Shown in pieces: positions 45,993 through 61,087 of a DNA stretch of 64,000 nt. This DNA comes from Parabacteroides sp. PM6-13 (GTDB lineage: Bacteria > Bacteroidota > Bacteroidia > Bacteroidales > Tannerellaceae). Each line of letters begins with the position of its first letter. The first letter of the stretch is position 1. The stretch spans positions 1 through 64,000 of the forward strand of contig NZ_JARXWF010000013.1 in assembly GCF_029892605.1 (NCBI RefSeq). The letters run 5' to 3'. The translations under genes and the position numbers were made by a program. The notes below the pieces were generated by a model that was not told the origin of the DNA, did not search any database, and saw only the letters and a program-made list of their open reading frames with translations.

Positions 45993-48221
45993 TCATCCCT
46001 CTTTCTCGTAATAATCGCTCAGGATATCTTTCACCTTTTCAGGCGTCACCCGTCCGTACACCTGGTCGCCGATCATGGCTACCGGCGCCAGTCCACAGGC
46101 ACCTACGCAGCGCAGGCAATCGATGGAGAACAAACCATCCTGTGTGGTTTCGCCCACCTTGATGTCCAACTGGCGTTCAAACTCATCCAATACCTTTTCC
46201 GCTCCGCGTACATAACAGGCCGTACCCATACAGATCGAGATCGGGTATTTCCCTTTCGGTGTCATCGTAAAGAAGGAATAGAACGACACTACGCCGTAGA
46301 CTTTCGACACGGGGATATTCAATTCCGCAGCAATCACCTCCTGTACCTCTTGCGGAATATAACCAAACTTGCCCTGTGCGGCATGCAGTACGTTGATCAG
46401 TTCGCCCGGGTCATTGTTGAATCGCGCGCATATCTCTTTCAACTCTTGCGCCTTTCCATTCGGCAACTTCGGACGGCGATCGTAATAATGCGTATGCAAC
46501 AATTTATGCGAAAGCGGTCCGCAGGGTTCGCCCAGGTATTCTTTGTAGAGGGAGATGATATAGGGATTCTCATGACTTTTGCGTCGTGCCTTGTCGGCAT
46601 CTTCTTTATACAAAGCGGATGCCCGGCGTTTGATCACATTGATATCGCCATGGTGGAAAGGTTGTCCTCCGCCATTGATACATCCACCCGGACAAGCCAT
46701 GATTTCAATAGCATGATACGGAGAGGTTCCGTTCTTCACCTCTTCGATCATGGCTCGGGCATTACCCAATCCATTGGCGATTCCCACCTTGACCGGCACG
46801 CCATCGAAATCGATTGTCGCGCTTTTGATACCATTCAGGCCACGCAGACATTCAAAATTAACATCACCTAATGTTTTCTTGGTATGCACCTCGTAGGCTG
46901 TACGGCAGGCTGCTTCCATCACACCACCGGTCGTTCCGAATATAACCGAAGCACCGGTCGATTCGCCGAGTGGCTGATCGAAGTCGCTATCCGGCAGGTT
47001 GCGGAAGTCAATATTGGCATAACGGATCAGGCGTGCCAACTCACGAGTGTAGATCGATACATCCACATCGGGATTTCCATCGACAGCAAACTCCGGACGG
47101 CTGGCTTCGTATTTCTTAGCCAGACATGGCATGATGGAGACAACCACCAGGTCTTCCCGTTTGATGCCCAGCTTCTCGGCAAAATAGGTCTTGGCGATGG
47201 CGCCAAACATTTGCTGCGGACTCTTGGCAGTCGACAGGTGATCGCTCAATTCCGGATAGTTCTTTTCTACAAAATTAACCCATCCCGGACAGCAACTGGT
47301 CATCAAAGGTATCTTCACCTCTTTGTCCCCGTTTAGATAACCACCCAGGCGGCCTAACAATTCCGTTCCCTCTTCCATTATGGTCAGGTCGGCAGCGAAA
47401 TCGGTATCGAACACATAGTCGAAACCAAGCTGACGCAAGGCCGCTACCATTTTGCCGGTCACCAAGGTTCCCGGAAGGAATCCGAAGTCATTTCCCAATG
47501 CCGTACGAACGGCAGGCGCTGTTTGCACGATCACTGTTTTCGTCGGATCAGCCAGCATATCGAGTACATACTGCGTATGGCTGCGTCCGCTCAAGGCGCC
47601 TACCGGGCATACTGCCACGCATTGTCCGCAATAGGTACAACTGCTGTCGGCTATGTTGCGGTCGAAAGGCGTTTGTACCAGTGATTCAAAACCACGGTCG
47701 ACAGCCGACAAGGTGCCGACAGTCTGGATGGAGTTACACATCGTTTCACAGCGACGGCACATGATACATTTGCTCATATCGCGTACAATCGACTCCGAAC
47801 GGTCTTTGCGATGGCTTATGCGATGGCCGGAGAAGCGCGATTCACGCATGTGCAGGTCGTAGGCAACCTTCTGCAGTTCGCAATTCTCATTCTTGCTGCA
47901 TATCAAACAATCCGACGGGTGATTCGAGAGAATCAGCTCCATCACTGTCTTACGGGCGTTGATCACACGGGGGCTATAGGTTTGCACCACCATACCTTCC
48001 ATGCAGGTGGTCTTACAGGCAGGCGCCAGGTTGCGGCGTCCTTCTACTTCCACGACGCATATACGGCAGGCGCCCGGTTCGTTTTTATATTCAAACTCAT
48101 GCAGATTCAAATGGCAGAGTGTGGGAATACGTATCCCTATCTTTTTCGCTGCGTCCAGGAGGGTGGCTCCTTTTTCTACTTCAACAGCTTTATTGTCTAT
48201 CGTTAATTTAATTGTTTCCAT
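45993..48221 (-). CDS. [FeFe] hydrogenase catalytic subunit fused to a NuoE-like domain
   Basis: A 742-residue group A hydrogenase. Residues 1-80 are a plant-type [2Fe-2S] domain. A His/Cys [4Fe-4S] site (NHPSDCLICSKNENC) and two ferredoxin clusters (CIMCRRCETMC, CTYCGQCVAVC) follow. The H-cluster motifs are intact: TSCCPGW (308-314), MPCLAKKYE (364-372), MACPGGCINGGGQP (508-521). A small-subunit segment follows, then residues about 590-742 form a NuoE/HydC-like [2Fe-2S] domain with CMGTAC (Cys664, Cys669) and CVGAC (Cys705, Cys709). HydC is usually a separate gene. With its HydB-like neighbour it should exchange electrons between NAD(H), ferredoxin and protons. Confidence 0.93.
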   Translation of the reverse strand: METIKLTIDNKAVEVEKGATLLDAAKKIGIRIPTLCHLNLHEFEYKNEPGACRICVVEVEGRRNLAPACKTTCMEGMVVQTYSPRVINARKTVMELILSNHPSDCLICSKNENCELQKVAYDLHMRESRFSGHRISHRKDRSESIVRDMSKCIMCRRCETMCNSIQTVGTLSAVDRGFESLVQTPFDRNIADSSCTYCGQCVAVCPVGALSGRSHTQYVLDMLADPTKTVIVQTAPAVRTALGNDFGFLPGTLVTGKMVAALRQLGFDYVFDTDFAADLTIMEEGTELLGRLGGYLNGDKEVKIPLMTSCCPGWVNFVEKNYPELSDHLSTAKSPQQMFGAIAKTYFAEKLGIKREDLVVVSIMPCLAKKYEASRPEFAVDGNPDVDVSIYTRELARLIRYANIDFRNLPDSDFDQPLGESTGASVIFGTTGGVMEAACRTAYEVHTKKTLGDVNFECLRGLNGIKSATIDFDGVPVKVGIANGLGNARAMIEEVKNGTSPYHAIEIMACPGGCINGGGQPFHHGDINVIKRRASALYKEDADKARRKSHENPYIISLYKEYLGEPCGPLSHKLLHTHYYDRRPKLPNGKAQELKEICARFNNDPGELINVLHAAQGKFGYIPQEVQEVIAAELNIPVSKVYGVVSFYSFFTMTPKGKYPISICMGTACYVRGAEKVLDEFERQLDIKVGETTQDGLFSIDCLRCVGACGLAPVAMIGDQVYGRVTPEKVKDILSDYYEKEG

Positions 48222-48229
48222 GGTATTGT

Positions 48230-50023
48230 TTAGATGATATAGATGGCGTCGAACTTACATTTCTCAATACAAGAGCCACAGCGGATACACTCTAAGGTGT
48301 CGATCACATGCGGTATCTTACGCTCTCCCGTAATGCAATGCACCGGGCAGATACGGGCGCAGACAGTACATCCACGGCATTTCTCCGCATTTATATAATA
48401 ATGGATCAATTTGCGGCATTGGTGCGAAGGACATTTTTTGTCCACCACATGCGCCAGGTATTCGTCACGGAAATGCTCCATGGTCGACAAGACCGGATTG
48501 GGCGATGTTTGCCCCAGCCCGCAAAGAGCGGTGTCTTTGATTACATTCCCTAAGTTTTTCAATAGTTCTAAATCCTCTACCTCTCCTTTTCCGATCGTGA
48601 TACGGTGCAAGATCTCCTGTAGGCGTTTGTTTCCAACGCGACAAGGAGTACATTTCCCGCAGGATTCCTCTACGGTAAAGTCCAGATAGAATTTCGAAAC
48701 AGCCACCATACAGTCGTCTTCATCCATCACAATCATACCACCCGACCCCATCATAGAGCCGGCAGCCAACAGGTTGTCATAGTCGATAGGCAGATCCAGG
48801 TGCTTTTCCGTCAGACAGCCTCCCGAAGGACCTCCCGTCTGTACGGCTTTGAACTTCTTTCCGTCTTTGATGCCGCCTCCGATACCGAAGATTACTTCGC
48901 GGAGCGTTGTGCCCATCGGCACTTCGATCAGGCCGACATTGTTGACCTTTCCGGCCAGGGCAAACACCTTGGTACCCTTGCTGCGCTCCGTTCCGATGCT
49001 GCTGAACCATTTGGCACCTTTTTGCAGAATTACAGGAATGTTGGCATAGGTCTCCACATTATTTACATTGGTCGGTTGCCCTTTGTAGCCCTGTTCGCTG
49101 GGGAAGGGAGGTTTGCTGGTTGCTTCGCCCCGCTGTCCTTCCATACTATGGATCAATGCCGTCTCTTCACCACACACAAAGGCGCCGGCACCATAACGAA
49201 TCTCGATCGAGAACGAAAAGTCGGTTCCGAAGATATTGTCTCCCAAAAGCCCGTATTCCGTTGCCTGTTTGATAGCGATTTTCAGGCGTTCTACTGCCAG
49301 CGGATATTCGGCACGGATGTAGATCAAGCCCTTATCAGCACCCGTACAATACCCATTGATAGCCATTGCCTCCAATATAGAATGAGGGTCGCCTTCGAGG
49401 ATTGAACGGTCCATGAAGGCACCCGGGTCGCCTTCGTCGGCATTGCAGACCACGTATTTCTGGTCGGCAACCACCTTACGGGTGATTTCCCACTTCATGC
49501 CGGTAGGGAATCCGCCTCCTCCCCGACCCCGCAAGCCACTGTCTTTAATCTCCTGGATCACCTCTTCGGGCGTCATTTCCGTCAAGGCTTTGCCTAAGGA
49601 TACATATCCGTCGCGGGCAATGTATTCGTCGATGTTTTCCGGGTTGATGAAACCACAGTTACGCAAAGCAATGCGGTATTGCTTTTTGTAAAAATCCATG
49701 TGTTTAGAGTCGGAAATATGCTCTTTGGTTTCCGGATTCGTGTATAACAGTCGGGCTACTTTGCGCCCTTTAACCAAATGTTCGCGAACGATCTCATCGG
49801 CATCTGAAGGATACACCTGTACATAAAAAGTGTTGTCGGGAACCATTTTAACAATCGGTCCCTGTTCGCAAAAGCCGAAACAGCCTGTGCGAAGCACTTG
49901 TACTTTTTCCTGCAATCCCTGCTGCAGGATAGCCGATTTCAGCGAATTGATCAGTTGTTCGCTTTGAGATGCACGGCAACCGGTACCTCCACATACCAGT
50001 ATGTAATCTGTGAATGTCGTCAT
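48230..50023 (-). CDS. NuoF/HydB-like NADH-binding subunit of the hydrogenase
   Basis: A 597-residue flavoprotein. An N-terminal thioredoxin-like [2Fe-2S] domain (CGGTGCRASQSEQ, GCFGFCEQGP) precedes the NADH/FMN domain (SGLRGRGGGGFPTGMKWE, CNADEGDPGAFMDRS). The cluster site ESCGKCTPCRVG follows, with two ferredoxin clusters at the C-terminus (CRGCTVCARICPVHC, CIRCGSCIEKCKFDA). This is the HydB layout of electron-bifurcating or NADH-dependent hydrogenases. It starts 29 bp after the small [2Fe-2S] gene and ends 8 bp before the HydA fusion. Confidence 0.95.
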   Translation of the reverse strand: MTTFTDYILVCGGTGCRASQSEQLINSLKSAILQQGLQEKVQVLRTGCFGFCEQGPIVKMVPDNTFYVQVYPSDADEIVREHLVKGRKVARLLYTNPETKEHISDSKHMDFYKKQYRIALRNCGFINPENIDEYIARDGYVSLGKALTEMTPEEVIQEIKDSGLRGRGGGGFPTGMKWEITRKVVADQKYVVCNADEGDPGAFMDRSILEGDPHSILEAMAINGYCTGADKGLIYIRAEYPLAVERLKIAIKQATEYGLLGDNIFGTDFSFSIEIRYGAGAFVCGEETALIHSMEGQRGEATSKPPFPSEQGYKGQPTNVNNVETYANIPVILQKGAKWFSSIGTERSKGTKVFALAGKVNNVGLIEVPMGTTLREVIFGIGGGIKDGKKFKAVQTGGPSGGCLTEKHLDLPIDYDNLLAAGSMMGSGGMIVMDEDDCMVAVSKFYLDFTVEESCGKCTPCRVGNKRLQEILHRITIGKGEVEDLELLKNLGNVIKDTALCGLGQTSPNPVLSTMEHFRDEYLAHVVDKKCPSHQCRKLIHYYINAEKCRGCTVCARICPVHCITGERKIPHVIDTLECIRCGSCIEKCKFDAIYII

Positions 50024-50052
50024 ATGTGTTTTCTATTAGTAAGGATTTTTGT

Positions 50053-50451
50053 TTACTCCGGATTCACCGCGTTGTATGTGATCGGCATAATACCGTCGAC
50101 CAGTATGCCCTGCTGGATATACTGATTGATCAGTTCGTCGACTTTCTCTTCCGTAAGATATCCGAACACCAACGGTTCTTTGCCGGGCAGGATAATCTCA
50201 GCCGTTGGTTCGGCATAGCAATAGCCCATGCAGCCGGTTTGGGTCACCAGTGCGTCAATCTGACGCTTATTGAGTGTTTGTACAAAATAATTCATAATCT
50301 CTTTAGCCCCGGAGGCAATGCCGCAGGTGGCCATAGAAATTTTGATCTGAATCATCTGCTCCGGATGGTTGCTCTTTTCGCGAAGATCAATGTCGGCTTT
50401 GAAAGCCTCCCGCATTTTGCGCAGGTCATCTAAGGTCTTAATTTTATTCAT
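50053..50451 (-). CDS. Thioredoxin-like [2Fe-2S] ferredoxin subunit
   Basis: A 132-residue protein with the cysteine set MATCGIASGAK and TGCMGYCYAEPT of the thioredoxin-like ferredoxins that accompany HydB (HydD-like). First gene of the hydrogenase operon. It probably carries electrons to or within the complex. Confidence 0.88.
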   Translation of the reverse strand: MNKIKTLDDLRKMREAFKADIDLREKSNHPEQMIQIKISMATCGIASGAKEIMNYFVQTLNKRQIDALVTQTGCMGYCYAEPTAEIILPGKEPLVFGYLTEEKVDELINQYIQQGILVDGIMPITYNAVNPE

Positions 50452-50632: not shown

Positions 50633-51520
50633 CTATTTATCCTCTACGATACGGGATTGAAGTACTTTGGAATAGGGAGGAACGTCGTGTGTCAGCCAGA
50701 TATTTCCGCCGATAACGGAGCCTTTGCCGATGGTGATGCGTCCCAGAACAGAGGTGTTGGAATAGATGATCACATCGTCTTCTATAATCGGATGACGGGG
50801 AATATCAACTGGTAACCCCTCTTCGTCGAGGCGGAAGCTTTTGGCACCTAAAGTAACCCCTTGGTAAAGACGTACATGGTTGCCAATAATAGCCGTGCCT
50901 CCGATCACAACGCCTGTGCCGTGGTCGATGCTGAAGTATTCGCCTATCTCTGCTCCCGGGTGGATGTCGATGCCGGTTTTGGAGTGTGCCATTTCCGTGA
51001 TGATACGGGGAATAACAGGCACCCCCAGTTTCAAGAGTTGATGGGCCGCACGTTGATGCAGGATCGCTACGATGGAGGGATAGGAAAAGATCACCTCACT
51101 GGCGCTGGTGGCTGCCGGGTCTCCGTCCAGCATGGCTTTTACATCGGTCGACAACAACGCTTTGATCTCAGGGATTCTGTTGATGAAAGAAATAGCTATC
51201 TCGGAGGCTCTTTGTTTTGAATCACAACAAGCCTCGGACTCGAAACAAAGTCCTCGGTAGATCTGTTCCAACAAAAGATCATATAGCTGTTCGAGATAAA
51301 CCCCCATATAGTAACGGATCGTGTCGGGTTGTGCCTCTTTGGTCGTACCAAAAAAACCGGGGAAAACCACCAAACGTAACAGATGCATCACCTCTTCCAG
51401 GCAAGCGATCGATGGTGACGGCTTTTGATGTAATGGGATATAACGATATTCCGGCAGGTCAGCCGCTGCCAGTTTATCGCTGTTTTCCAGTATTTGTTGG
51501 AGGATATGATTCTTGTCCAT
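50633..51520 (-). CDS. Serine O-acetyltransferase
   Basis: A 295-residue enzyme of the EpsC/CysE type that makes O-acetylserine for cysteine synthesis. A helical N-terminal domain is followed by left-handed hexapeptide repeats (GIDIHPGAEIGEYFSIDHGTGVVIGGTAIIGNHVRLYQGVTLGA, and HPIIEDDVIIYSNTSVLGRITIGKGSVIGGNIWLTHDVP). His residues in DIHPGA and IDHGTG fit the active site. It starts 5 bp after the kelch lipoprotein gene, so it is probably the last gene of the kinase-phosphatase operon. Confidence 0.93.
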   Translation of the reverse strand: MDKNHILQQILENSDKLAAADLPEYRYIPLHQKPSPSIACLEEVMHLLRLVVFPGFFGTTKEAQPDTIRYYMGVYLEQLYDLLLEQIYRGLCFESEACCDSKQRASEIAISFINRIPEIKALLSTDVKAMLDGDPAATSASEVIFSYPSIVAILHQRAAHQLLKLGVPVIPRIITEMAHSKTGIDIHPGAEIGEYFSIDHGTGVVIGGTAIIGNHVRLYQGVTLGAKSFRLDEEGLPVDIPRHPIIEDDVIIYSNTSVLGRITIGKGSVIGGNIWLTHDVPPYSKVLQSRIVEDK

Positions 51521-51525
51521 GGTGT

Positions 51526-53754
51526 TTATCTATCCCATGCCGGGTCGTAGCAAATGGTGGTTCGGTTTGAACCAAAGCCTATGTACATTCTCTTGCCATC
51601 GGAGAATACACAATGAATATCGCGATGCGTTTCCGGCACCCGTGAATTGGCTGTACTCCAGGTCTTCGCTATGGTGTCAAATATCCGGATATATCCTTCG
51701 CTGTCGATCATATAAATAGAAGAACCGATGGCCACCCCGGCTTTCGCCGCGTAATCTCCCGGCATAGGCTCCTGCTCTTCCCAGTTGAATACTTCGCTGT
51801 CGTTCACCGCTTTTCTGGTTGACCATAACCTATTGCTGAAATCGGGATTCATACCTATGGAGGTCAAACCTAATCCGGCATAGATATAGTCGCCAACAGC
51901 AAAGGCGTAGCCGCTATACTGTGCTTCAGGGAAATCAGCCTCCTGTACCCATCGTGGGGTTTGTATCACACGTTGTTTCCACACATCGGCAACAATCGAG
52001 TCACCCGACGCAGTCCTTTGCACACCACCAATCATAATCATATCAATCAGGTAACAGGCAAAAGAGCCATACATAGGCGTAGGGCTTACATCTTCGGCGA
52101 GTATCCAGTTGTTTTTAATAAAAACATTAAAATAATGGTCGCTTGTCGGTTGTCGATGGGTGTTAAAGCCTCCCCAAACATGAATACCATCTTTATTGCT
52201 GGCTATGGCCATCATACTCCTTTTCGCGGGGAGATGGCTTGTGTTTTCCTGCCAGGTAAGATAATATTCACTATCTCTATTCATATCGAATTTCCAGAAC
52301 TGATTGGTTTGATCTCCGTAGGAGTTCTTATCACCTCCTACGAGATACCCCACTCTTCGTTCGGCCAACGTCAGGTAAGCTCCTGAATTAGGGACTTGTA
52401 TCTCTCCACTAAAATAGCCTGTCGGCAACGTCGCGAAGATTTCCACCGTAGTAAACGTTTCATTGTCGCCATAAGAAAGATATCCTTCACTATTCAAGGC
52501 AAAGGCTCTTACATGGTAAGTGGTTCCGGGAAGGAAATCGGTTATATACGTAGTGAACGACGTGCTGGTTCCCCACAAATCAATTCTTACATCATCATCT
52601 ATCGTCGGGTTTTCATTCGTTGACCATACGATACCTGCTTCAACGATAGTGGCCGGTTGCCCCTCTTCTTTTATTCCCGGAGCAGCAACCGATCCGCCAA
52701 GGGTTACCGTCCCGTCTCCAACAATAGGAGTAGCCGTCACCACCGTTGGTTTCTCACTCAATAAAGTGAACGAGACAACTTCCGAGCTATAAACAAGCGT
52801 ATCCGCATTACTCACAAAGGCTTTCACATAGTAGGGACGTTGTTGTTCGACGTTGGAAATCCGTCCGGTAAAGAGACCCACACCGGCATCACACAGGATC
52901 GTATCCGTTCCGGCTGCCCCGATTTCAAGGTTTCTCGACAATCCATAGCAGAATCCTCTGAGCGTGACGTCTGTATCTCCCGGGTTAGTAACCTCGGCAC
53001 TGAATTCCGCGTAGGTAGTCGTAACATGATCTATGGTCAGATTGCCCACGACAGGAAGTCCGTCGGTCGTTTTTACTTCTATCTCTTTTCCGACAGAGGT
53101 GCCGAACTTATTTTTTACATAAGCTTGCACATAATAGGTAGTAAGCGCCTCCAGTTCTGTGATGGTACAAGTATATGAATCCGTATCCATGGTGCTTGCC
53201 AGGGAGTCTTTCTCGGTACCCGCTTCGGTGAGCGACGCTTTAGCGTAATAGACACCTCGTTCCAGGATTTCACCCTCGCCTTTGTCGGTGATTTCACCCC
53301 CTATCTCTATTGAGGTCGATTTAACATCCAGTGCTTCCAGCGTTATCACACTGGCCAGGCCTTCGATCGTAGTAAACGAGAGGGTGCTACCATACCCATA
53401 ATTGATACTATTCTTCGCATACGCCTGAACAATATATTTAGTGCTGTCCTCCAAAGAGGTGATTTTGAAAGAGAAAGATTCGTTTGTTCCATCCGTAACC
53501 GCCTGGGTCTGTTTCTCTTCCGGAGTCTCTTCTTTATACCAGACAAAGCCTCTTTCGGTCACTTGGGTTCCATTTTCTTTGTCCACTTTACCAAATACCG
53601 TTACTTCCGTTGCTTTTATTCCTTCTACCTTTTCGGTGGTAACAACCGGTTCTTTTGCGCCTATCAGGTTGCCGGGCATGCGGGGGTCTTCAGCGCATCC
53701 GACAAAGAAGAGTGAGGCTAAAGCGATATATATAAGCGAAATATTCCTTTTCAT
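51526..53754 (-). CDS. Lipoprotein with FN3-like repeats and a kelch-like propeller
   Basis: A 742-residue lipoprotein. The signal peptide ends with the lipobox FVGC (Cys20). Residues about 35-430 contain four beta-sandwich repeats of roughly 95 residues that share the pattern ERGFVWYKEETP, then YIVQAYAKNSINYGYGSTLSFTT (FN3-like). The C-terminal 290 residues have kelch-like blades (RSMMAIASNKDGIHVWGGF, YSGYAFAVGDYIYAGLGLT, YAAKAGVAIGSSIYMIDSEGYIRIFD). It probably sits on the outer membrane. It follows the barrel gene by 12 bp in the kinase operon. Confidence 0.82.
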   Translation of the reverse strand: MKRNISLIYIALASLFFVGCAEDPRMPGNLIGAKEPVVTTEKVEGIKATEVTVFGKVDKENGTQVTERGFVWYKEETPEEKQTQAVTDGTNESFSFKITSLEDSTKYIVQAYAKNSINYGYGSTLSFTTIEGLASVITLEALDVKSTSIEIGGEITDKGEGEILERGVYYAKASLTEAGTEKDSLASTMDTDSYTCTITELEALTTYYVQAYVKNKFGTSVGKEIEVKTTDGLPVVGNLTIDHVTTTYAEFSAEVTNPGDTDVTLRGFCYGLSRNLEIGAAGTDTILCDAGVGLFTGRISNVEQQRPYYVKAFVSNADTLVYSSEVVSFTLLSEKPTVVTATPIVGDGTVTLGGSVAAPGIKEEGQPATIVEAGIVWSTNENPTIDDDVRIDLWGTSTSFTTYITDFLPGTTYHVRAFALNSEGYLSYGDNETFTTVEIFATLPTGYFSGEIQVPNSGAYLTLAERRVGYLVGGDKNSYGDQTNQFWKFDMNRDSEYYLTWQENTSHLPAKRSMMAIASNKDGIHVWGGFNTHRQPTSDHYFNVFIKNNWILAEDVSPTPMYGSFACYLIDMIMIGGVQRTASGDSIVADVWKQRVIQTPRWVQEADFPEAQYSGYAFAVGDYIYAGLGLTSIGMNPDFSNRLWSTRKAVNDSEVFNWEEQEPMPGDYAAKAGVAIGSSIYMIDSEGYIRIFDTIAKTWSTANSRVPETHRDIHCVFSDGKRMYIGFGSNRTTICYDPAWDR

Positions 53755-53766
53755 TGTTATCTATTT

Positions 53767-54711
53767 TTAGAAAAACAGGCCGATACCGGCATTCAAATCG
53801 ACATAATCAAAGTTTACTGTATGACCTCCGACGCTGACGTAAACATAATTAAATCTCAGCGTGAGATCTAATTCTCCTACGGCTCCTTTGCTGGAATAGG
53901 TTTGATTATTACACCAGATAAACTCTTTCGCACCCGACGTATTATCCGTCATCGTGAATGGCGACAACAGATTTCTTTCTCCATAGCCCACTCCGACAGA
54001 AGCATATAACCAATCCGTGAATTTATAAATAAAACCGGCCGTACCTGCAAAGGAGGTTTTCTTATTCGACATATCTAATGCCTGATAGGTCTTATTGTTA
54101 TCTGGATCAACAATCGCGCTGGCGTCATTTTCCAGCTTACAGGCATAGTCCGTAGTTCTGAATGAGAGATCGGATCTCACACGGACATACCAACCAGCCT
54201 TTTCCTGTAGACCGCCGAAGGTCAAACCTACCGGCATCTCTGTTGAATAGGTATAACCGGCAAAAAAAGACATCGGTTCTTTCGGTTTTTTGGCAATCAG
54301 ATTGTTTGCGTAAATCGCATAGGGATTTGTCAGTTCTTCGTATTTGTTTTGCCAATGTTCGGCTATGGTATCGCTGTTTGGGGTAGCAATTCCTTTCGCG
54401 TGATAGACCACTAACAATTTAATGGCTGTCGTGTCGTTAAGCTCAGCTTTATCATTCAAGCATTTCAGGCAACGTGTCATCAGGTTACGCATAGAAGGAC
54501 GCATATTTTCGTCTTCCAACCAGATATCAGTCAGTTTTTCGATGCTGTATATATCACAATAGCCAATGCCTTCCCCATACCACATACGGGCACTGGTATA
54601 ATCTTTTTGCTGTAAAGCTTCATCTCCTTTTTGATTGTACGTTGCATGTTGTTGCGCATTCAAACAGAATGCAGACAAAGCAAATACCATCATAATCCAA
54701 ATTCTATTCAT
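53767..54711 (-). CDS. Probable outer-membrane beta-barrel protein with TPR-like N-terminus
   Basis: A 314-residue exported protein with a signal peptide (MNRIWIMMVFALSAFCLNAQ). A short TPR-like segment (YNQKGDEALQQKDYTSARMWYGEGIG) and a helical region to about residue 140 follow. The C-terminal 170 residues are alternating aromatic beta strands (FFAGYTYSTEMPVGLTFGG, WYVRVRSDLSF) ending in IGLFF, which fits a barrel with a terminal Phe. It lies between the kinase and the kelch lipoprotein genes and may be the envelope end of the signalling system. The family is not named. Confidence 0.7.
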   Translation of the reverse strand: MNRIWIMMVFALSAFCLNAQQHATYNQKGDEALQQKDYTSARMWYGEGIGYCDIYSIEKLTDIWLEDENMRPSMRNLMTRCLKCLNDKAELNDTTAIKLLVVYHAKGIATPNSDTIAEHWQNKYEELTNPYAIYANNLIAKKPKEPMSFFAGYTYSTEMPVGLTFGGLQEKAGWYVRVRSDLSFRTTDYACKLENDASAIVDPDNNKTYQALDMSNKKTSFAGTAGFIYKFTDWLYASVGVGYGERNLLSPFTMTDNTSGAKEFIWCNNQTYSSKGAVGELDLTLRFNYVYVSVGGHTVNFDYVDLNAGIGLFF

Positions 54712-54717
54712 AATTTC

Positions 54718-56568
54718 TTATAAGATTACGCCTTCGCGAACCAATTTACCATTTTCGTCATATATATCATAAAGCATATCTTCCCGTTGAAAAGCTCTGC
54801 CTTCTTCATGCCAGTCGGCTACAAGGTATTTGCACGGTATAATCTCCATACCCGCGTTGTTGATGGCGCCAATTTTACCGGTTGATATTTTCTTTACGAC
54901 TGTCAGCTCACCATGTCCAATGGTCATCATCGTCTTATACTGTGCCTTCTTTTCTTCAATATCTTTCTCTTCCGCCTTTTTGCTGGCCTCTTTGATTTGA
55001 TCCAGTAGGTTATCATCGAGCGATAGCTTATACGCTTCGGTGTAGTCGTCTTCTGCTCCTTTGAAATCCGACTGAAGCATCTTTTTATTAGCTGATGCAA
55101 TCAATGCGGAAATTGTTGCATTCAGTTCTTCTTTTGAAGGAAGCAGGGAGGCTGATTCTTCCGTTGTTGTCGGTGTGCCCGGCTGTTCGATAGGCTCCGA
55201 CACAATCTTTTCCTGATCTCTTTGAGGCTCATTTACAGGTGCTTTTTCTTCGTTATCTCCTGTTTGTGAAGTCGTTTGGGGTGATCCGGAGGTATTCTCC
55301 GGTGTAGAAACGGGGGTGTTTTCTGTTTCTTCCGCCGGGGCAGGATTCTCAATCTCCGTGGTTTGTTCTGTCGTAGACGGACTATCGTTTCCCATCGTCG
55401 TTTGCGGTCCCTTTTGGATATAGAGCGTATAGATTACAGCAGAAGCAACAAGAGCGATAACAGCAAAAACAGCAGTCATTATCACCTTTCTTTTCTTGCC
55501 CTTTGGCTTTTTGATCTCTTCCTGGGGGGTATTCAGAATCGTTTGATCCGCGGTGTCTCCTATTCGCTGTTCCGGGGTGTTGGTTGGAAAAAGAAGTGTC
55601 GTATCTCCTCCTTTACCGATGTTTGTTCCAGTTGTCCTCGTCGCGTCGGTCGGGCTGCATGCTTCCTCTGAGGGTTTATCTAAGACACTCATCATCTCCC
55701 GCACCGTCTGGTATCGGTCTGTCGGCACAATCTCCATGGCTTTCAGAATAACACCTTCTGTCTTTGCGGAGATGGCTTTGTTGATCACCGTTGGCTTCGT
55801 CATGGGGCGCGTAGCCCGAAGAATCGACTCGACCGGGATCTTGCCGGTCAACAGGTTATAGAGTGACGCCCCTAAGGAATAGATATCCGGATAGGGTGAA
55901 AACACCTGGGTTCCTTCGTTGTCATATTGTTCAATAGAGGCAAAACCTTTGGAGAGCGTGAGCATGGTGGTGCTGGTCTCCTGCTGCTCGGTATCGTATC
56001 GTTTGCTTACACCGAAGTCGATCAACCTGGCATTGTCTCTCTGGTCAATCAGAATATTACTGGGCTTGATGTCCAGGTGGAGGATGTTTTTGTCATGTAC
56101 AAACTGAAGTGCTTCGCCTATCTGGTGGATGTAACGGAGCACTCTGTTTTCAGACATAACACCATCCCGCTCCATCATCTCTTTCAATGATAATCCCGAG
56201 ATAAACTCCATGACAATATAGGCCGTATTGTTTTCTTCAAACACTTCCAATACATTCACAATATGCGGATGATGTACGTCCGAAAGTATACGCGCCTCTT
56301 TTATAAGCTTTTCCTTGAATTTATGGAAGAGATTGTTCCCGGTCTCTGAATGAACTTTTACCTCATTGGTTTCGGTGTCACGATAGCAATAGTCTTTAAA
56401 GAAATACTCTTTGATAGCGATAGGCACTTCGGTGTCTACCGTACCCAGCGAGCCCTTTACTTCTGTGTTCCAGACTCCTTTATAGGTAATGCCAAAGCCC
56501 CCCTGTCCCACCACGTGAGTAAGACGGTATTTTCCATTTTGTAGTAGGTGCCCGTAGGGTAAATTCAT
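54718..56568 (-). CDS. Membrane Ser/Thr protein kinase with WG-like C-terminus
   Basis: A 616-residue Hanks-type kinase. It has the glycine loop GQGGFG (21-26), Lys53 in AIKEY, Glu91, the catalytic loop HLDIKPSN (164-171, HLD for HRD) and DFG (184-186). Residues about 300-350 carry D-x-T motifs (DTTLL at 322, DQTIL at 341). A span at about 361-385 leads to a Thr/Pro/Glu-rich linker, a helical TPR-like segment (ADDYTEAYKLSL-like) and a WG-like repeat (KIGAINNAGMEIIPCKY). The C-terminal half would be outside the cytoplasm. The gap to the phosphatase gene is 43 bp, and to the barrel gene 6 bp. Confidence 0.92.
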   Translation of the reverse strand: MNLPYGHLLQNGKYRLTHVVGQGGFGITYKGVWNTEVKGSLGTVDTEVPIAIKEYFFKDYCYRDTETNEVKVHSETGNNLFHKFKEKLIKEARILSDVHHPHIVNVLEVFEENNTAYIVMEFISGLSLKEMMERDGVMSENRVLRYIHQIGEALQFVHDKNILHLDIKPSNILIDQRDNARLIDFGVSKRYDTEQQETSTTMLTLSKGFASIEQYDNEGTQVFSPYPDIYSLGASLYNLLTGKIPVESILRATRPMTKPTVINKAISAKTEGVILKAMEIVPTDRYQTVREMMSVLDKPSEEACSPTDATRTTGTNIGKGGDTTLLFPTNTPEQRIGDTADQTILNTPQEEIKKPKGKKRKVIMTAVFAVIALVASAVIYTLYIQKGPQTTMGNDSPSTTEQTTEIENPAPAEETENTPVSTPENTSGSPQTTSQTGDNEEKAPVNEPQRDQEKIVSEPIEQPGTPTTTEESASLLPSKEELNATISALIASANKKMLQSDFKGAEDDYTEAYKLSLDDNLLDQIKEASKKAEEKDIEEKKAQYKTMMTIGHGELTVVKKISTGKIGAINNAGMEIIPCKYLVADWHEEGRAFQREDMLYDIYDENGKLVREGVIL

Positions 56569-56611
56569 AATTACTTTGGCAATGCTTATTTATTTGCCAA
56601 AAGTACATTAA

Positions 56612-57418
56612 TTATACAAAAGAATAAAATAAAGAAAGAAGATTTTGCTTTAATCCTGCATTATCATGCACTTGTTGAACGGGAATGATGTAAAATGAAA
56701 AGTTATCCCGTGTGCGTCCATTGCAATATTCCACAATGGAATCTTTAATGGCATCCGCTGCCGAGGTCTTTTTGAAAATGTCAGATAGTTTGTCGTCGGA
56801 CAGATTTTCCAATACACCGTCCGTACACATGAGAAAGGCATCTCCTTCCTGGATGTCCTGGCATAGGGCAACATCTACTTCCGTGGGGCGTGTCGTGCTC
56901 TGGATGGCGCGAAGAATTACATTTCTTTGTGGGTGCACCGTTGCCTCTTGCGGAGTGATTTTCCCCAATTGAACAAGTGAGTTTACTAATGAATGATCTT
57001 CTGTCCGGTACTTGATCTCTCCGTGGCGGAAGTGATAGATGCGGCTATCTCCAACATGGGCAATGGTTACTCCTTTGGAGCCAATATACAACAAGGTTAA
57101 TGTGGTAGCCATTCCTTTGGCCTCGGGGTGCTCTTCGGTATAATCGTCAAAGCGTGCTTCCGTATACTGAATAGCTTTCTGGATAAATTCTTTGGTGGGA
57201 TCCCCTCCCTCCAGGAAGGTGGAAAAGTAGGATTGAATGGATTCACATGCCAACGCGCTGGCTACTTCACCTTTGTCTGCTCCTCCTACTCCGTCGCAGA
57301 CGATAAACAAGCGTTGGTTGATGGTAACTGTTTCCGGTTGCGGATAAAGCGAATCCTCATTGTTCAACCGGCCACCCTTCTCACTAATAGCGCATGGCTT
57401 TCCAATCGTTATATTCAT
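56612..57418 (-). CDS. PP2C-family protein phosphatase
   Basis: A protein of about 268 residues from the ATG at 57418 (a GTG at 57427 is also in frame). PPM-family motifs are GGRLNNEDS, FIVCDGVGGADKGE (metal-binding Asp), VTIAHVGDSRIYHF, RTEDHSLV and FLMCTDGVLENLSDDKL. It should reverse the action of the adjacent kinase. Cytoplasmic; no membrane span. Confidence 0.94.
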   Translation of the reverse strand: MNITIGKPCAISEKGGRLNNEDSLYPQPETVTINQRLFIVCDGVGGADKGEVASALACESIQSYFSTFLEGGDPTKEFIQKAIQYTEARFDDYTEEHPEAKGMATTLTLLYIGSKGVTIAHVGDSRIYHFRHGEIKYRTEDHSLVNSLVQLGKITPQEATVHPQRNVILRAIQSTTRPTEVDVALCQDIQEGDAFLMCTDGVLENLSDDKLSDIFKKTSAADAIKDSIVEYCNGRTRDNFSFYIIPVQQVHDNAGLKQNLLSLFYSFV

Positions 57419-57432
57419 AACAGGCACGAGAT

Positions 57433-57948
57433 TTAATCGTTGAAGCGAAGTACCGTACGGCCAATAATGATCTCATCATTATCTTTAAGTACAATAACTT
57501 CTCCTTTTTCTAAGAAACTGCTATTATATAACGTTTGATTTTTACTATTATTATCTGAAAGGTAATGTTTATATCCTCCTTTTGCCTCTTTTCTTACTTC
57601 GATGCGAATATGCTCCCGACTCATAGAGCGGTCGTTGGTCACAATGCTGATTGTCGCGTTCGAAGCAGATGAGCTGCGGCCTATAACGCTAACGCCTTCA
57701 TACAGAGGGAATTTCTGCTCCTGTGTGTTCTCGTCGGCTAAGACCGTTATTTGCCCAAGCGTTGATTTGGATGTTTGTAAGAGGGTGGTGTCTGACGAAG
57801 AATCATCAGTCGTATTTCTTTCTCGTAACAGAGAAATGGGTATCGATTTTTTGCACTTCGGGCATTTGAAAGACAAAATGCCCGGAGGCAGTTTTCCTTC
57901 ATCAACCTTTAACCCTACGTGGCAATGTGGACATCGGATGGAGATCAT
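57433..57948 (-). CDS. Zinc-ribbon and FHA domain protein
   Basis: A 171-residue protein. Residues 1-40 are a zinc ribbon (CPHC-x18-CPKC). Residues about 45-60 contain DTTLL (53-57), also found in the kinase. Residues about 80-170 are an FHA domain (VSVIGRSSSASNATISI, MSREHIRIEV, LSDNNSKNQTLYN, DEIIIGRTVL) that should bind phosphothreonine. Its start overlaps the stop of the acidic protein gene by 4 bp, and its stop is 14 bp before the phosphatase ATG. Confidence 0.92.
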   Translation of the reverse strand: MISIRCPHCHVGLKVDEGKLPPGILSFKCPKCKKSIPISLLRERNTTDDSSSDTTLLQTSKSTLGQITVLADENTQEQKFPLYEGVSVIGRSSSASNATISIVTNDRSMSREHIRIEVRKEAKGGYKHYLSDNNSKNQTLYNSSFLEKGEVIVLKDNDEIIIGRTVLRFND

Positions 57949-58184
57949 AGTACAATAATGTCAGAGCTGTCAATAATTAAGTCGTCGGATGATAAGTCAA
58001 GCATATCGGCCTCCGACAGCATAACCGTCTCGTCCGACAATGTAAAGAAGCCATAGTTCTCATCGGTGTTTTCATCCACAACGACTGCTTCGATTACATC
58101 ATCGTTTTCTACTATAATAACAGCGTCCTCCGTTAAGGCGTCATCACTGTCTATAGTCACGAATGTATATTCCTCTTCTTGCAT
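57945..58184 (-). CDS. Very acidic 79-residue protein of the phospho-signalling operon
   Basis: The start MQEEEYTFVT at 58184 is chosen because a longer frame to 58244 crosses the promoter. Of 79 residues 25 are Asp or Glu, and there is no Lys, Arg or His. Hydrophobic strands alternate with acidic turns. It has a TLSD sequence (Thr48), which fits the pTxxD preference of FHA domains, and DETVM (51-55), similar to motifs in the kinase and FHA protein. Not recognised from any family. Coupled to the FHA gene by a 4-bp overlap. Confidence 0.7.
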   Translation of the reverse strand: MQEEEYTFVTIDSDDALTEDAVIIVENDDVIEAVVVDENTDENYGFFTLSDETVMLSEADMLDLSSDDLIIDSSDIIVL

Positions 58185-58215
58185 ACTACACTTTAATAAG
58201 ACATAAAATACAAAG

Positions 58216-58245
58216 CAAATGTATTGAAAGCTGAGCGCAATCAAG
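58216..58245 (-). promoter_or_regulatory. Promoter candidate P2b of the phospho-signalling operon
   Basis: On the minus strand TTG (58242-58244), 18 bases and TACATTTG (58216-58223), 32 bp before the acidic protein ATG. The spacer is one base short of the usual range. Confidence 0.5.
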
Positions 58246-58281
58246 CTTGCTTGATATTGCCGAAGCGCATCTTACATTATA

Positions 58282-58311
58282 CAAATGTACGAAAAGTGTT
58301 AGATTAGCAAA
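58282..58311 (-). promoter_or_regulatory. Promoter candidate P2a of the phospho-signalling operon
   Basis: On the minus strand TTTG (58308-58311), 18 bases and TACATTTG (58282-58289). With P2b it suggests that the operon from the acidic protein onward has its own transcription, separate from the LytTR-FHA pair. Confidence 0.5.
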
Positions 58312-58387
58312 CAGATAACAATCTCTTATAATCAAAGACTTGGGTTTATTGTACGAAAGTATCTCTTTCATATGACGAAAACCCTTT

Positions 58388-59035
58388 TTATTCGTTAATC
58401 CATTTGGCCTTGCACGAAGAGACGGGGCATTGCTTTCTGTTTCGTAGCGATTCCCAGGGTATTTCGCCCAGGAACGTGCCGCATTTCGGGCAGACATAAT
58501 CAATTTTGAACTGATTCGCGATGTGTTGCAGTTGTCGTGGCACTTTAGCCGATTGTTTGGCGCCAAGAAAAATGCCTATTGTCGGTGCGCAAACCATCAC
58601 AATGAAACTGATTACCATCAACAAAGGGCTACCTTTCTCAAGAAAGCTTAGGGTCACCCCAACCACCCCGAGTAGTGCGAATGGAATAGATTGTAACAGT
58701 CTTGTTTTGAACTGGTTCGATGATTGTATCTTAACTTTTGATTCAATATAACGATCATATATTCCCTTCAACAAAGCGAACTCTTCGCTGTAGTCATTAT
58801 GCTGATTAAGGATATCGGAAAGAGAGCAGACATGTTCTCCGAACCGGATTTCATCCTTTGTATTCACCCGCTTGCGAGCCACCTGCTGGTCGTTCACATA
58901 GGTGCCGTTTGTGGAGTTCAGGTCAATAAGCAACCATACCCCATCCTCTTGTTTTTCAAGCTGGGCATGATGGCGACTCACGTGTGGGTCGTCTACAATG
59001 TACTGGTTGTCGCTTTCCTTGCCTATTTTAATCAT
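58388..59035 (-). CDS. FHA, membrane and zinc-ribbon protein
   Basis: A 215-residue protein with the reverse order of its neighbour. An FHA domain lies at residues 1-75 (GKESDNQYIVDDPHVSRHHAQLEK, LNSTNGTYVND, DEIRFGEHVCSL). Two membrane spans follow (about 113-131 and 138-158). A C-terminal zinc-binding segment (CPKCGTFLGEIPWESLRNRKQCPVSSC) closes it. It starts within the stop codon of the LytTR gene. It would present a phosphothreonine reader at the membrane. Confidence 0.9.
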   Translation of the reverse strand: MIKIGKESDNQYIVDDPHVSRHHAQLEKQEDGVWLLIDLNSTNGTYVNDQQVARKRVNTKDEIRFGEHVCSLSDILNQHNDYSEEFALLKGIYDRYIESKVKIQSSNQFKTRLLQSIPFALLGVVGVTLSFLEKGSPLLMVISFIVMVCAPTIGIFLGAKQSAKVPRQLQHIANQFKIDYVCPKCGTFLGEIPWESLRNRKQCPVSSCKAKWINE

Positions 59036-59409
59036 TATGCTTCCGTTTTACCCATCTCCTTTTCCAGCGATTCTTTCAATGCTTTCAGGGGATCCTTGGA
59101 GATATTCAATTCACGAGGCTTTCCTTCGTTGGATAGCAAGATCAAGCGCTGCTTGGGCAGGTGAATTTGTAAGATATGGTTCTTATTAATAATATGGCTC
59201 TTACCTACACGCATCAGAATCTTTTTGCTGCCTTCCACCTGGCGTTCCAGCATCTCTTCTATCTTGCCGATGTTGATAGCAAAAGTAAATTGAATCCCAC
59301 TGGTAAGCAAAAGTTTAGTATAATTGCGATCCGCCTCGAAATAAAGTATTTGACCAATTCTGATACGCAATAATTCATCTCGCGTCTTGATAATTAAATA
59401 TCGCTCCAT
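59035..59409 (-). CDS. Stand-alone LytTR DNA-binding protein
   Basis: A 124-residue protein consisting only of a LytTR DNA-binding domain (LLRIRIGQILYFEADRNYTKLLLTSG, KILMRVGKSHIINKNHILQIHLPKQRLILLSN). There is no response-regulator receiver, so the input must come from a partner protein. It overlaps the FHA gene by one base and has its own consensus promoter. Confidence 0.9.
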   Translation of the reverse strand: MERYLIIKTRDELLRIRIGQILYFEADRNYTKLLLTSGIQFTFAINIGKIEEMLERQVEGSKKILMRVGKSHIINKNHILQIHLPKQRLILLSNEGKPRELNISKDPLKALKESLEKEMGKTEA

Positions 59410-59435: not shown

Positions 59436-59467
59436 CAAAAATACAGCTTTTTCCGCAAACGGCAAAA
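59436..59467 (-). promoter_or_regulatory. Promoter P1 of the LytTR-FHA genes
   Basis: On the minus strand TTTG (59463-59466), 19 bases and TATTTTTG (59436-59443) match the consensus exactly. The LytTR ATG follows 27 bp after the -7 box. Confidence 0.75.
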
Positions 59468-59472
59468 GAAAA

Positions 59473-60489
59473 TCATAACAGAGACTGCTGAAATGCATTT
59501 TGAAGTTGCTTCATCGCTTCAATTATTTGATCGAAAGACGGAACAACATCATCGTAAATCATGTTTTCGACCATTGATTCGTAATCTTTCCGCCATTCAC
59601 TTCTAACTTTCTCGGGAGGCAATAGACAAATGCGACTACGCACATCCCAGCTATAATCCACATCGCGCACGGGGGTGAATATTTCACGATGATGACGGAT
59701 TGCTTCCCAGAGGTTGTCATTAGAAATCGCTTTGTCGACGATGCCTATTTCAATCATTTTGTAGAGATCATAAAGATGGCGTGATTTGCGATTGGCATTT
59801 TGACATCCGTCTGTCGAAAATAATTCATGTAAAAGAAATGCTTTTTCGAGAAATGTCTTTTCTGCTACAGCTACAACAACATGAGTCCCCAAATTACGTG
59901 ACGTGAGGTGTGGAAACATTTCAGTTACAAAAGATTCAACTTTCGCGATGGCTGTTGGCTCAAATAATGAACGAGCCCCCACTTCCAGCAGTACCTCATC
60001 GCGAAGATAGACGTTATGTTCTATTGGAAAAACGGACTGATAGAAGACATGAATTTGTCGAGGTTCCGGATACATAGCATCGCCTTCCCCATCCGGATCA
60101 GGAATAACTGTAAAAAACTCACTTAGTCCAACTTTTTCAATAGCAAATATCAAATCTTGCACAAGGGTATCTCTTACAAATAACGAAGATTCTTTGCGGA
60201 GTTTTTTTAGTTGTTTTTTCGTCACATCCCCCTCTATACCAAACAAGCTACGGTCAACGACAATATCAATATCTTCCGAGAAACGTTTGATCACATTCCA
60301 TACCTTGCTTAGTGATGTTCCACCTTTGAACACTATCTTATCCGCATAAGGCAACAAAGAAAGAATATTCAAAATTTCCGTCACCCAAAAATCCTTTTCA
60401 ACTGCTCGCACCGGAAGGTGTTTTCGCACAGCTGTCTGCTCAAAAATTGACCTGCGCTGGGCGACGGCAAGTGTTAGGAATTTATTCAT
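59473..60489 (-). CDS. AbiEii-type nucleotidyltransferase toxin
   Basis: A 338-residue toxin of the type IV AbiE abortive-infection family. The nucleotidyltransferase core is FKGGTSLSKVWNVIKRFSEDIDIVV, with GGTSL at 56-60 and the metal-binding Asp73 and Asp75. AbiEii proteins stop growth reversibly by transferring nucleotides to RNA targets. It overlaps the antitoxin gene by 8 bp. Length and motifs appear intact. Confidence 0.9.
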   Translation of the reverse strand: MNKFLTLAVAQRRSIFEQTAVRKHLPVRAVEKDFWVTEILNILSLLPYADKIVFKGGTSLSKVWNVIKRFSEDIDIVVDRSLFGIEGDVTKKQLKKLRKESSLFVRDTLVQDLIFAIEKVGLSEFFTVIPDPDGEGDAMYPEPRQIHVFYQSVFPIEHNVYLRDEVLLEVGARSLFEPTAIAKVESFVTEMFPHLTSRNLGTHVVVAVAEKTFLEKAFLLHELFSTDGCQNANRKSRHLYDLYKMIEIGIVDKAISNDNLWEAIRHHREIFTPVRDVDYSWDVRSRICLLPPEKVRSEWRKDYESMVENMIYDDVVPSFDQIIEAMKQLQNAFQQSLL

Positions 60490-61087
60490 AAGCGGAAAGT
60501 ATTATTTTACGAATCCATGCAGGGATAAGTTTAAAGTCGTTTTTAATACTTTCAAATGGGTATTGACTGACAAGGGCTTTGACATGCGTCAGCTGTTCAT
60601 CGGTAATATTACCTTCGCCAAGCTCACGTAAAGCAAATGTAAGCAGCATGGTGAAATCATTTTGAAACGCCATATTTTTTTTTGCTGTATGTTTGAACTC
60701 TATGCCCCTCTCCTCTTGCAACTTGATTTTACGAGGAGATCCGTCAGTGAAATACACCACATTCATAGGGAACTGCGTAGACAGTCCGAGTTTATTCAAT
60801 GCATGAACTCCGGTAGGAACAATCTTTGCCTTGTCGCGTTTTGCAATGGCAATTGCAATTTCCTCAAACGTAGGATAAAGAATGCCAAGTCCCAACTTCT
60901 TATCAATCTTTGGGTAACAGTAAATTCCACGAGCTACTCGGATTATTTTTTTATCTGCTGTTAATCGTTCGAAGGCTTTTTGAACAGCTTTCGGTTCCCC
61001 ATAACCAGCAAAATCCAAAGGAAAAACAACAGAACCTCTTCCGCATTTTGATATGCTGGCAATAATCTTTGATTCAATCGATTGCAT
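60482..61087 (-). CDS. AbiEi-type antitoxin
   Basis: A 201-residue antitoxin of the DUF6088/AbiEi group. The N-terminal winged-helix (IIASISKCGRGSVVFPLDFAGYGEPKAVQKAFERLTADKKIIRVARGIYCYPK) is typical, and the C-terminal part is the antitoxin domain. AbiEi antitoxins do not bind the toxin but bind inverted repeats in their own promoter. One such repeat is present just upstream. Confidence 0.88.
   Translation of the reverse strand: MQSIESKIIASISKCGRGSVVFPLDFAGYGEPKAVQKAFERLTADKKIIRVARGIYCYPKIDKKLGLGILYPTFEEIAIAIAKRDKAKIVPTGVHALNKLGLSTQFPMNVVYFTDGSPRKIKLQEERGIEFKHTAKKNMAFQNDFTMLLTFALRELGEGNITDEQLTHVKALVSQYPFESIKNDFKLIPAWIRKIILSAYE

Follow-up and report, generated by a model that had tools for sequence, protein, structure and literature searches.

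A conserved kinase, phosphatase and FHA gene island with a LytTR regulator in Tannerellaceae

The eight-gene island and described systems

The LytTR regulatory systems (LRS) HdrRM and BrsRM pair a receiver-less soluble LytTR regulator with a membrane protein encoded after it, and their promoters are preceded by direct repeats of period 21 (cited passages of PMC6193735). The PknB/Stk1-PstP/Stp1 systems comprise a Ser/Thr kinase with one transmembrane (TM) segment and an extracytoplasmic domain, and an adjoining PP2C. GarA and OdhI are soluble FHA proteins in which an acidic-Thr motif precedes the FHA domain. In the passages cited here, ArnA of Sulfolobus (ArnA-ArnB, PMC6509490) carries a zinc finger at its N-terminus and an FHA domain at its C-terminus, and the KKP prophage module (PMC11341870) has a PP2C beside a Ser/Thr kinase, with FHA involved. 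Likenesses to each of these are found in an eight-gene island at 51526-59409 of the window, which is the whole stretch of 64,000 nucleotides analysed here (positions 1 to 64,000 of NZ_JARXWF010000013.1, contig C13 in our set). The window belongs to the genome of Parabacteroides sp. PM6-13 (GCF_029892605.1; 4.04 Mb, 99.5% complete). What is new in the island is the joining of Ser/Thr phospho-signalling to an LRS-like switch; both kinds of system are known already.

The genes are all on the minus strand, in the order LytTR regulator, FHA-membrane-zinc ribbon protein (FT), small acidic protein, zinc ribbon-FHA protein (ZF), PP2C, kinase, outer-membrane barrel protein and kelch lipoprotein. This is the content and position given in the initial annotation, and the open reading frames (ORFs) and Pfam matches bear it out, including the attached envelope-type proteins and the LytTR protein without a receiver. 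The overlaps or gaps of 4 to 43 bp described for the second block are also correct: the smallest is a 4-bp overlap (acidic/ZF) and the largest is 43 bp (PP2C/kinase). The LytTR and FT ORFs overlap by 1 bp. The acidic and barrel proteins have no Pfam model above its cut-off.

Conservation was assessed in 80 named loci, the best 80 of 95 relatives of the kinase; these were collected via the kinase, and conservation is therefore conditional on it. Locus profiles were built from at most 24 of the 80 loci plus the window. Searches by phmmer with the window proteins alone agreed with the profile results; the exception was the acidic protein, in many of the Tannerella loci. The complete eight-gene order, which the earlier reading had proposed to check in relatives, is kept in all 57 named loci that are long enough on both sides. 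Where the contig reaches, each gene is present every time: LytTR (67/67), FT (71/71), acidic (73/73), ZF (76/76), PP2C (78/78), barrel (74/74) and lipoprotein (68/68). One locus, L077, has a 2.9-kb gap between ZF and PP2C. It is almost certain that the eight genes are a conserved functional unit.

The closest named relatives of the kinase are from Parabacteroides sp. PFB2-10 (82%) and PF5-6 (60%), and the island occurs in Parabacteroides distasonis, a tractable gut commensal, and in Tannerella forsythia. At E 1e-30, the kinase was found in 85 of the 98 family genomes and in 56 of the 59 good ones, counts that include a genome (G003) whose matches are paralogues only; without it, the counts are 84/98 and 55/59. 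FT is also missing from 12 of the 13 kinase-less family genomes, and 10 of those 13 are less than 90% complete. Two nearly complete genomes, G015 and G029, contain neither kinase nor FT, so the system can be lost. Among 295 genomes of the order, strong matches to both FT (2e-95) and the barrel (3e-76) outside Tannerellaceae were found only in G375, in which the LytTR-FT pair and the ZF-to-kelch block lie on separate contigs, among other genes. The island is core in Tannerellaceae, whose members live in gut and mouth, and is vertically placed rather than sporadic.

Differences from the described systems are found in each comparison. The membrane partner of LytTR carries an FHA domain and a zinc ribbon, unlike that of LRS, and a Ser/Thr kinase and a PP2C are attached. 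The kinase differs from PknB/Stk1 in its C-terminal TPR/WG-type domain and in having HLD for HRD; PASTA repeats had no Pfam match at E 0.1, and NF033483 gave 176 of 450 bits. ZF has an acidic-Thr site before its FHA domain, as judged by sequence, but a zinc ribbon is added compared with GarA/OdhI. In the cited passages of PMC6509490, the partner of ArnA is a vWA protein, of which there is none in the island, and its zinc finger is of the RanBP2 type. The KKP module, as given in the cited part of PMC11341870, has a PP2C followed by two kinases, with fusions of cold-shock and FHA domains, whereas in the island there is a single membrane kinase and the FHA proteins are separate; no cold-shock domain was found in the island by Pfam. 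No description of the island was found in openly licensed full texts, which omit most subscription journals. Within that literature, the initial statement that no named system has this gene set is uncontradicted; however, the island is not isolated, as looser modules recur and the LytTR/membrane pair resembles LRS.

Transcription units and the candidate LytTR operator

The sequence TAnnTTTG is the -7 box of Bacteroidetes. Bacteroides promoters listed in the cited part of PMC6193735 (Table 3, TATCTTTG) share this form. Boxes of this type were located on the minus strand of the window before LytTR (P1, TATTTTTG, 59436..59443), the acidic gene (P2, TACATTTG, 58282..58289) and the kinase (P3, TACTTTTG, 56598..56605); the host genome has a second TACATTTG copy at 58216-58223. 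Across the loci, TAnnTTTG occurs within 60 nt upstream of LytTR in 60/71 (shuffles mean 1.8, max 7), of the acidic ORF in 58/74, and of the kinase in 71/80 (shuffles mean 6.3, max 13). Its frequency is at or below that of shuffles before FT (0/71), ZF (0/76), PP2C (2/78), barrel (4/77) and lipoprotein (3/74). Because the boxes precede LytTR, acidic and kinase genes but not the other five, there are probably three transcription units, LytTR-FT, acidic-ZF-PP2C and kinase-barrel-kelch, rather than one. The acidic ORF (57945..58184, minus strand, 79 aa, recognised by profile match) most likely starts at ATG 58184 and not at the TTG of the mechanical ORF list.

A direct repeat of period 21, TTTCGTACAATAAACCCAAGTCTTTGATTATAAG, is located at 58325..58358 on the minus strand, between FT and the acidic gene, and is a candidate LytTR operator. 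Its TT[CT]GTACA pattern is present in 72 of 73 FT-acidic intergenic regions, window included (shuffle max 3; L125 is without it), and a second half-site at +21 has an invariant G in all 72. The self-similarity peaks at lag 21 (0.54, compared with 0.18-0.40 at other lags). The distance from the start of the operator to the P2 box is 68 or 69 nt in 58/72. In 9 of 10 genomes the strict repeat pattern matches exactly once, and this match is the island site; the reversed control has none. The tenth genome (G019) has 0 matches, and its second half-site differs. The repeat appears to be a DNA switch site serving the island alone. A global LytTR regulon was considered and rejected, as the zero-mismatch match of a looser pattern is single in the host and the strict pattern finds the island site alone. 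As a separate observation, the host genome contains on many contigs a dispersed element of ~30 bp, TATTGTAAAGCAAAA-N6-TTTTGCTTA-like, whose half-sites look palindromic; the loose operator pattern matches it dozens of times with 2-3 mismatches.

Published LytTR sites, in the cited passages of PMC6193735, PMC11347149 and PMC4227749, consist of two direct repeats of ~9 bp each, in most cases separated by 12 bp, and lie immediately upstream of the promoter; a poor fit to the LytTR consensus is common among LRS operons (PMC6193735, same passages). The island repeat resembles such sites in geometry, and its letters are a poor fit to the consensus. The LytTR protein (59035..59409, minus strand, 124 aa; Pfam LytTR 6.2e-10, 39.6 bits, cut-off 22.6) has a LytTR domain only, without a receiver domain, and FT is the membrane protein encoded directly downstream, as in LRS. 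The repeats, however, are found before the LytTR operon in only 1/70 loci, before the kinase in 0/79, and before the acidic unit in 72/73. Since they precede the acidic unit and not LytTR, the island is not classed as an LRS; it would work like an LRS, yet stands outside that class. The action of LytTR at the period-21 repeat is likely.

Signalling proteins, envelope proteins and looser relatives

The kinase (54718..56568, minus strand, 616 aa; Pkinase 4e-40) is composed of a kinase domain, a linker, one TM segment and a C-terminal TPR-like/WG-repeat-like domain. The alignments, window included and after length cut-offs, held 72 FT, 77 acidic, 75 ZF and 77 kinase sequences, of at most 81. The kinase motifs are intact and of the HLD type (HLD 77/77, HRD 0, DFG 77/77), and one hydrophobic segment follows the linker in 77/77. 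The linker is otherwise variable, and contains [DE].T.[LIVMF] in 70/77 (shuffle mean 12.6, max 22), often twice, with 138 occurrences; the swapped pattern [DE]T.[LIVMF] is weaker there (53/77, shuffle max 26). The C-terminus was modelled as three helices and a small beta-domain (pLDDT 95.5). A WG-repeat model matched it in 5/13 relatives (best 1.8e-7) and TPR_2 in 3/13, and the domain had no PDB fold match at E 0.001. One of the looser relatives described below encodes a protein with eight WG repeats (L227:3635-4954, minus strand; PF14903 1.8e-82) between its Zn ribbon-FHA and PP2C genes, a parallel to the WG-like end of the window kinase.

The PP2C-type phosphatase (56612..57427, minus strand, 271 aa; PP2C_2 9.8e-18) has a GTG start, with ATG 57418 also possible. 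Its metal motifs are mostly kept among 79 sequences (DG.GG 77, GDSR 77, DG 73, DN 57), and the Stp1-type NCBIfam model gave 193 of 230 bits. ZF (57433..57948, minus strand, 171 aa) is soluble, and consists of an N-terminal zinc ribbon (Zn_ribbon_4 5.4e-8), a linker with SDTTLL and a C-terminal FHA domain (3.6e-13). Its linker contains [DE]T.[LIVMF] in 60/75 (shuffle mean 9.4, max 20). The phosphate-holding residues of FHA domains are Arg, Ser and Asn, and ZF keeps each of them in 75/75. FT (58388..59035, minus strand, 215 aa) has an FHA domain (Pfam FHA 9.1e-21), membrane segment(s) and a C-terminal four-Cys zinc ribbon; a hydrophobic segment and the four Cys are each present in 72/72. The acidic protein has a mean D+E of 29%. 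Among its 77 sequences, the TFVTID stretch keeps F in 77, V in 76, D in 76 and the second T in 63 (S in 12), and the F(I/F)TLSDD stretch keeps T in 67 and the first D in 74. It is very likely that kinase, PP2C and FHA proteins form one circuit. The anatomy of the island, i.e. its content, order, domain motifs, promoters, repeat with its genomic rarity and motif enrichment, is well supported. The host also has a third FHA gene (G000:C11:718-3023, L194; 188 aa); the gene after it encodes trypsin-like peptidase and TPR domains.

The barrel protein (53767..54711, minus strand, 314 aa) has a signal peptide, helical repeats and an OmpX-like barrel. Its AlphaFold2 model is helical in the N-terminal part and forms a beta-barrel in the C-terminal part (mean pLDDT 86.8, pTM 0.48), and the best PDB match by Foldseek was OmpX (E 2.8e-7). 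The lipoprotein (51526..53754, minus strand, 742 aa) has the lipobox LFFVGC-AEDP, fn3-like repeats (fn3 5.9e-8) and a kelch-like propeller; the best Kelch model (1e-12) gave 48.3 bits, just under the cut-off of 50, and the solved structures gave weak kelch and antibody matches only. Acidic residues after the lipid-bearing Cys mark surface lipoproteins in Bacteroidetes. The lipoprotein starts with C-A-E-D-P, and the form C-x-[EDN]-[ED]-P is found in 44/68. Elsewhere in the host (G000:C2:41193-47000, L195), a barrel paralogue and then several kelch/fn3-like genes follow a zf-HC2 zinc-finger gene; a barrel-lipoprotein pair thus also accompanies another kind of signalling gene.

A serine O-acetyltransferase-like gene (cysE; 50633..51520, minus strand; TIGR01172 1.1e-44, 152 of 211 bits) lies 5 bp downstream of the kelch gene. 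It is the gene next to the island in only 37/66 loci, and was dropped as a core member for this reason; it is probably a passenger of the kinase unit. Downstream of cysE, genes for an NADH-dependent [FeFe] hydrogenase of group A6 (NF040763 886 bits, cut-off 765) and a NuoF-like subunit occupy 45993-50451 on the minus strand. Directly upstream of the island is an AbiEii/AbiEi-type pair (59473-61087, minus strand; Pfam AbiEii 4.6e-30; PADLOC AbiEii, AbiEi), which is no conserved neighbour: AbiEii is beside the island in 1/80 other loci, weakly.

Looser relatives were inspected in 15 FT-like loci outside the canonical island (L038, L181-L185, L191-L193 and L227-L232), from Bacteroidales and the wider class. 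These sporadic loci mix FT, Zn ribbon-FHA and PP2C genes with one to three kinases. Such unnamed modules share with the island FT-type and Zn ribbon-FHA-type proteins together with PP2C and/or kinase; unlike it, they are sporadic, often have several kinases, and in some cases have a caspase. A caspase domain (Pfam C14) was confirmed in four of them, L038, L185, L193 and L228, and caspase-bearing FHA/kinase/PP2C modules are possible cell-death or defence systems. The OmpX-like barrel had no profile match in the unnamed modules. LytTR before FT is clear in L038 and L182, and weak in L183 and L227. Of the 15 loci, 12 encode an acidic membrane protein, which in most cases has DxDxDG-type repeats and a stretch like SFSEAF. 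In 10 of these 12, its gene immediately precedes that for Zn ribbon-FHA, which is the slot of the island acidic gene. A homology between the island protein and the acidic tails of these larger proteins was tried and set aside as weak (best full-sequence E 5e-4, unfiltered, 12 tails, composition-biased); the slot is the same and homology is not claimed. Among 395 genomes of the phylum, the FT model had matches at 1e-12 in 22, many of them to FHA alone; full-length FT outside Tannerellaceae was found in G514, G578 and G635.

Proposed circuit, alternatives and significance

The favoured reading, to which a probability of roughly 55% is given, is an envelope-facing Ser/Thr phospho-circuit that feeds a LytTR regulator held by the membrane FHA protein. 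The kinase unit would carry the sensor: its Ser/Thr kinase is a membrane protein, and the TPR/WG-type domain at the C-terminus of the kinase is predicted to be periplasmic; the barrel and the lipoprotein, which would be made together with the kinase, probably report the state of the envelope. The kinase may phosphorylate acidic-Thr sites, with DTTLL and DQTIL as candidates in its own linker, SDTTLL in ZF, and perhaps TFVTID and TLSD in the acidic protein. The FHA domain(s) would bind these phospho-sites, and PP2C would reset them. FT would hold or release LytTR and so carry the phospho-signal to transcription, and LytTR would bind the period-21 repeat and drive the acidic-ZF-PP2C unit. Because the repeat would control the adaptor-phosphatase unit, the expected effect would be feedback on the phospho-circuit, not self-amplification of LytTR. 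We infer the LytTR-repeat binding, the gating of LytTR by FT, the phospho-targets and the envelope sensing, and their strengths differ. Envelope sensing by the island has about an even chance. That FT gates LytTR by phosphorylation is a tentative suggestion, a little short of even odds. The combined form is a phospho-gated LRS: the membrane protein holding LytTR would bear an FHA domain, and input from a eukaryotic-like Ser/Thr kinase whose sensor faces the envelope would reach a transcription switch with one private site, through which the phosphatase and the FHA adaptor of the circuit are reset. This form is possible and somewhat more doubtful still.

Several observations weigh against this circuit. 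The FHA domain of FT has Lys at the usual Arg position in 72/72, and because of this replacement its phosphothreonine binding is uncertain; judged from these residues, FT may fail to bind. The Thr-motif patterns were picked after viewing the alignments and differ between kinase and ZF: [DE].T.[LIVMF] is unenriched in ZF (19/75, shuffle max 19). The barrel and the lipoprotein are tied to the kinase by the gene unit alone, and the surface-type signal is limited to the 44/68 lipoproteins mentioned. The letters of the repeat fit the classical LytTR consensus poorly. The looser pattern has 54 host matches, 1 of them without mismatch and most of the others from the dispersed repeat, while its pattern-reversed control has 8. 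The split island of G375 has no TTYGTACA before the acidic-like ORF. Finally, the candidate repeat would control the acidic unit and not LytTR itself, unlike in standard LRS.

A kinase circuit for metabolism or growth state, as with GarA/OdhI of Actinobacteria, is an unlikely alternative. ZF would then be the output, with its linker Thr toggling enzyme binding, and the envelope and LytTR genes would be merely co-transcribed neighbours. The linker motif of ZF does resemble the ETT site of these regulators, chains of GarA and OdhI are matched by the FHA profile A6, and the frequent cysE neighbour would fit. The curated NCBIfam OdhI model (cut-off 200 bits), however, gave only 15.9 bits for ZF (39.3 for FT), cysE is missing from the next position in 29/66 loci, and barrel and lipoprotein are within the conserved order at every covering locus. 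Less probable again is a tamed defence or cell-death module, kin of the FHA/kinase/PP2C/caspase modules, with trigger and effector replaced by envelope proteins. The caspase genes of the four related loci and the AbiEi/AbiEii pair upstream of the island speak for such a kinship, as do the PADLOC PD-T4-6 models, many of which match the kinase (best 4.9e-54). These matches lie mainly over the kinase domain, however, and PD-T4-6 models match kinase domains generally; the AbiEii neighbour is confined to the weak single case among other loci. The island itself has no caspase or other effector domain by Pfam, and is core and vertically placed, not sporadic.

A control module of the type VI secretion system (T6SS) kind has the same three enzyme and reader types, and PpkA is among the PDB matches of the kinase profile. 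This alternative is nevertheless very improbable. TssC PF17541 has no match in the host, and the T6SS link was rejected on this basis; the family is matched in 12/98 family genomes, compared with 85/98 for the kinase (G003 included). The search covered this one TssC family, which is of the Bacteroidetes type; 0/14 control genomes match it, and the 12 family genomes do. The TagH model TIGR03354, for which 120.25 bits are needed, gave 36.3 and 19.9 bits for the FHA proteins, far below the cut-off. The initial annotation had proposed a signalling system separate from T6SS, and had named adjacent, co-regulated T6SS genes as a finding that would speak against it; no secretion genes were seen among the neighbours read, with only the Bacteroidetes-type TssC searched, and the proposal stands.

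Few studies in the openly licensed literature deal with Ser/Thr phospho-signalling of Bacteroidetes. The island is core to its family and brings sensor, kinase, phosphatase, readers, regulator and a candidate DNA site together; it points to a way in which a Ser/Thr kinase could act on transcription, by means of an FHA membrane protein and a LytTR regulator. The model is open to test, since it predicts one operator per genome and defined phospho-sites. If it is true, a phospho-gated LRS would join two signalling classes that are so far known as separate, and the sporadic caspase-bearing modules would be its relatives.

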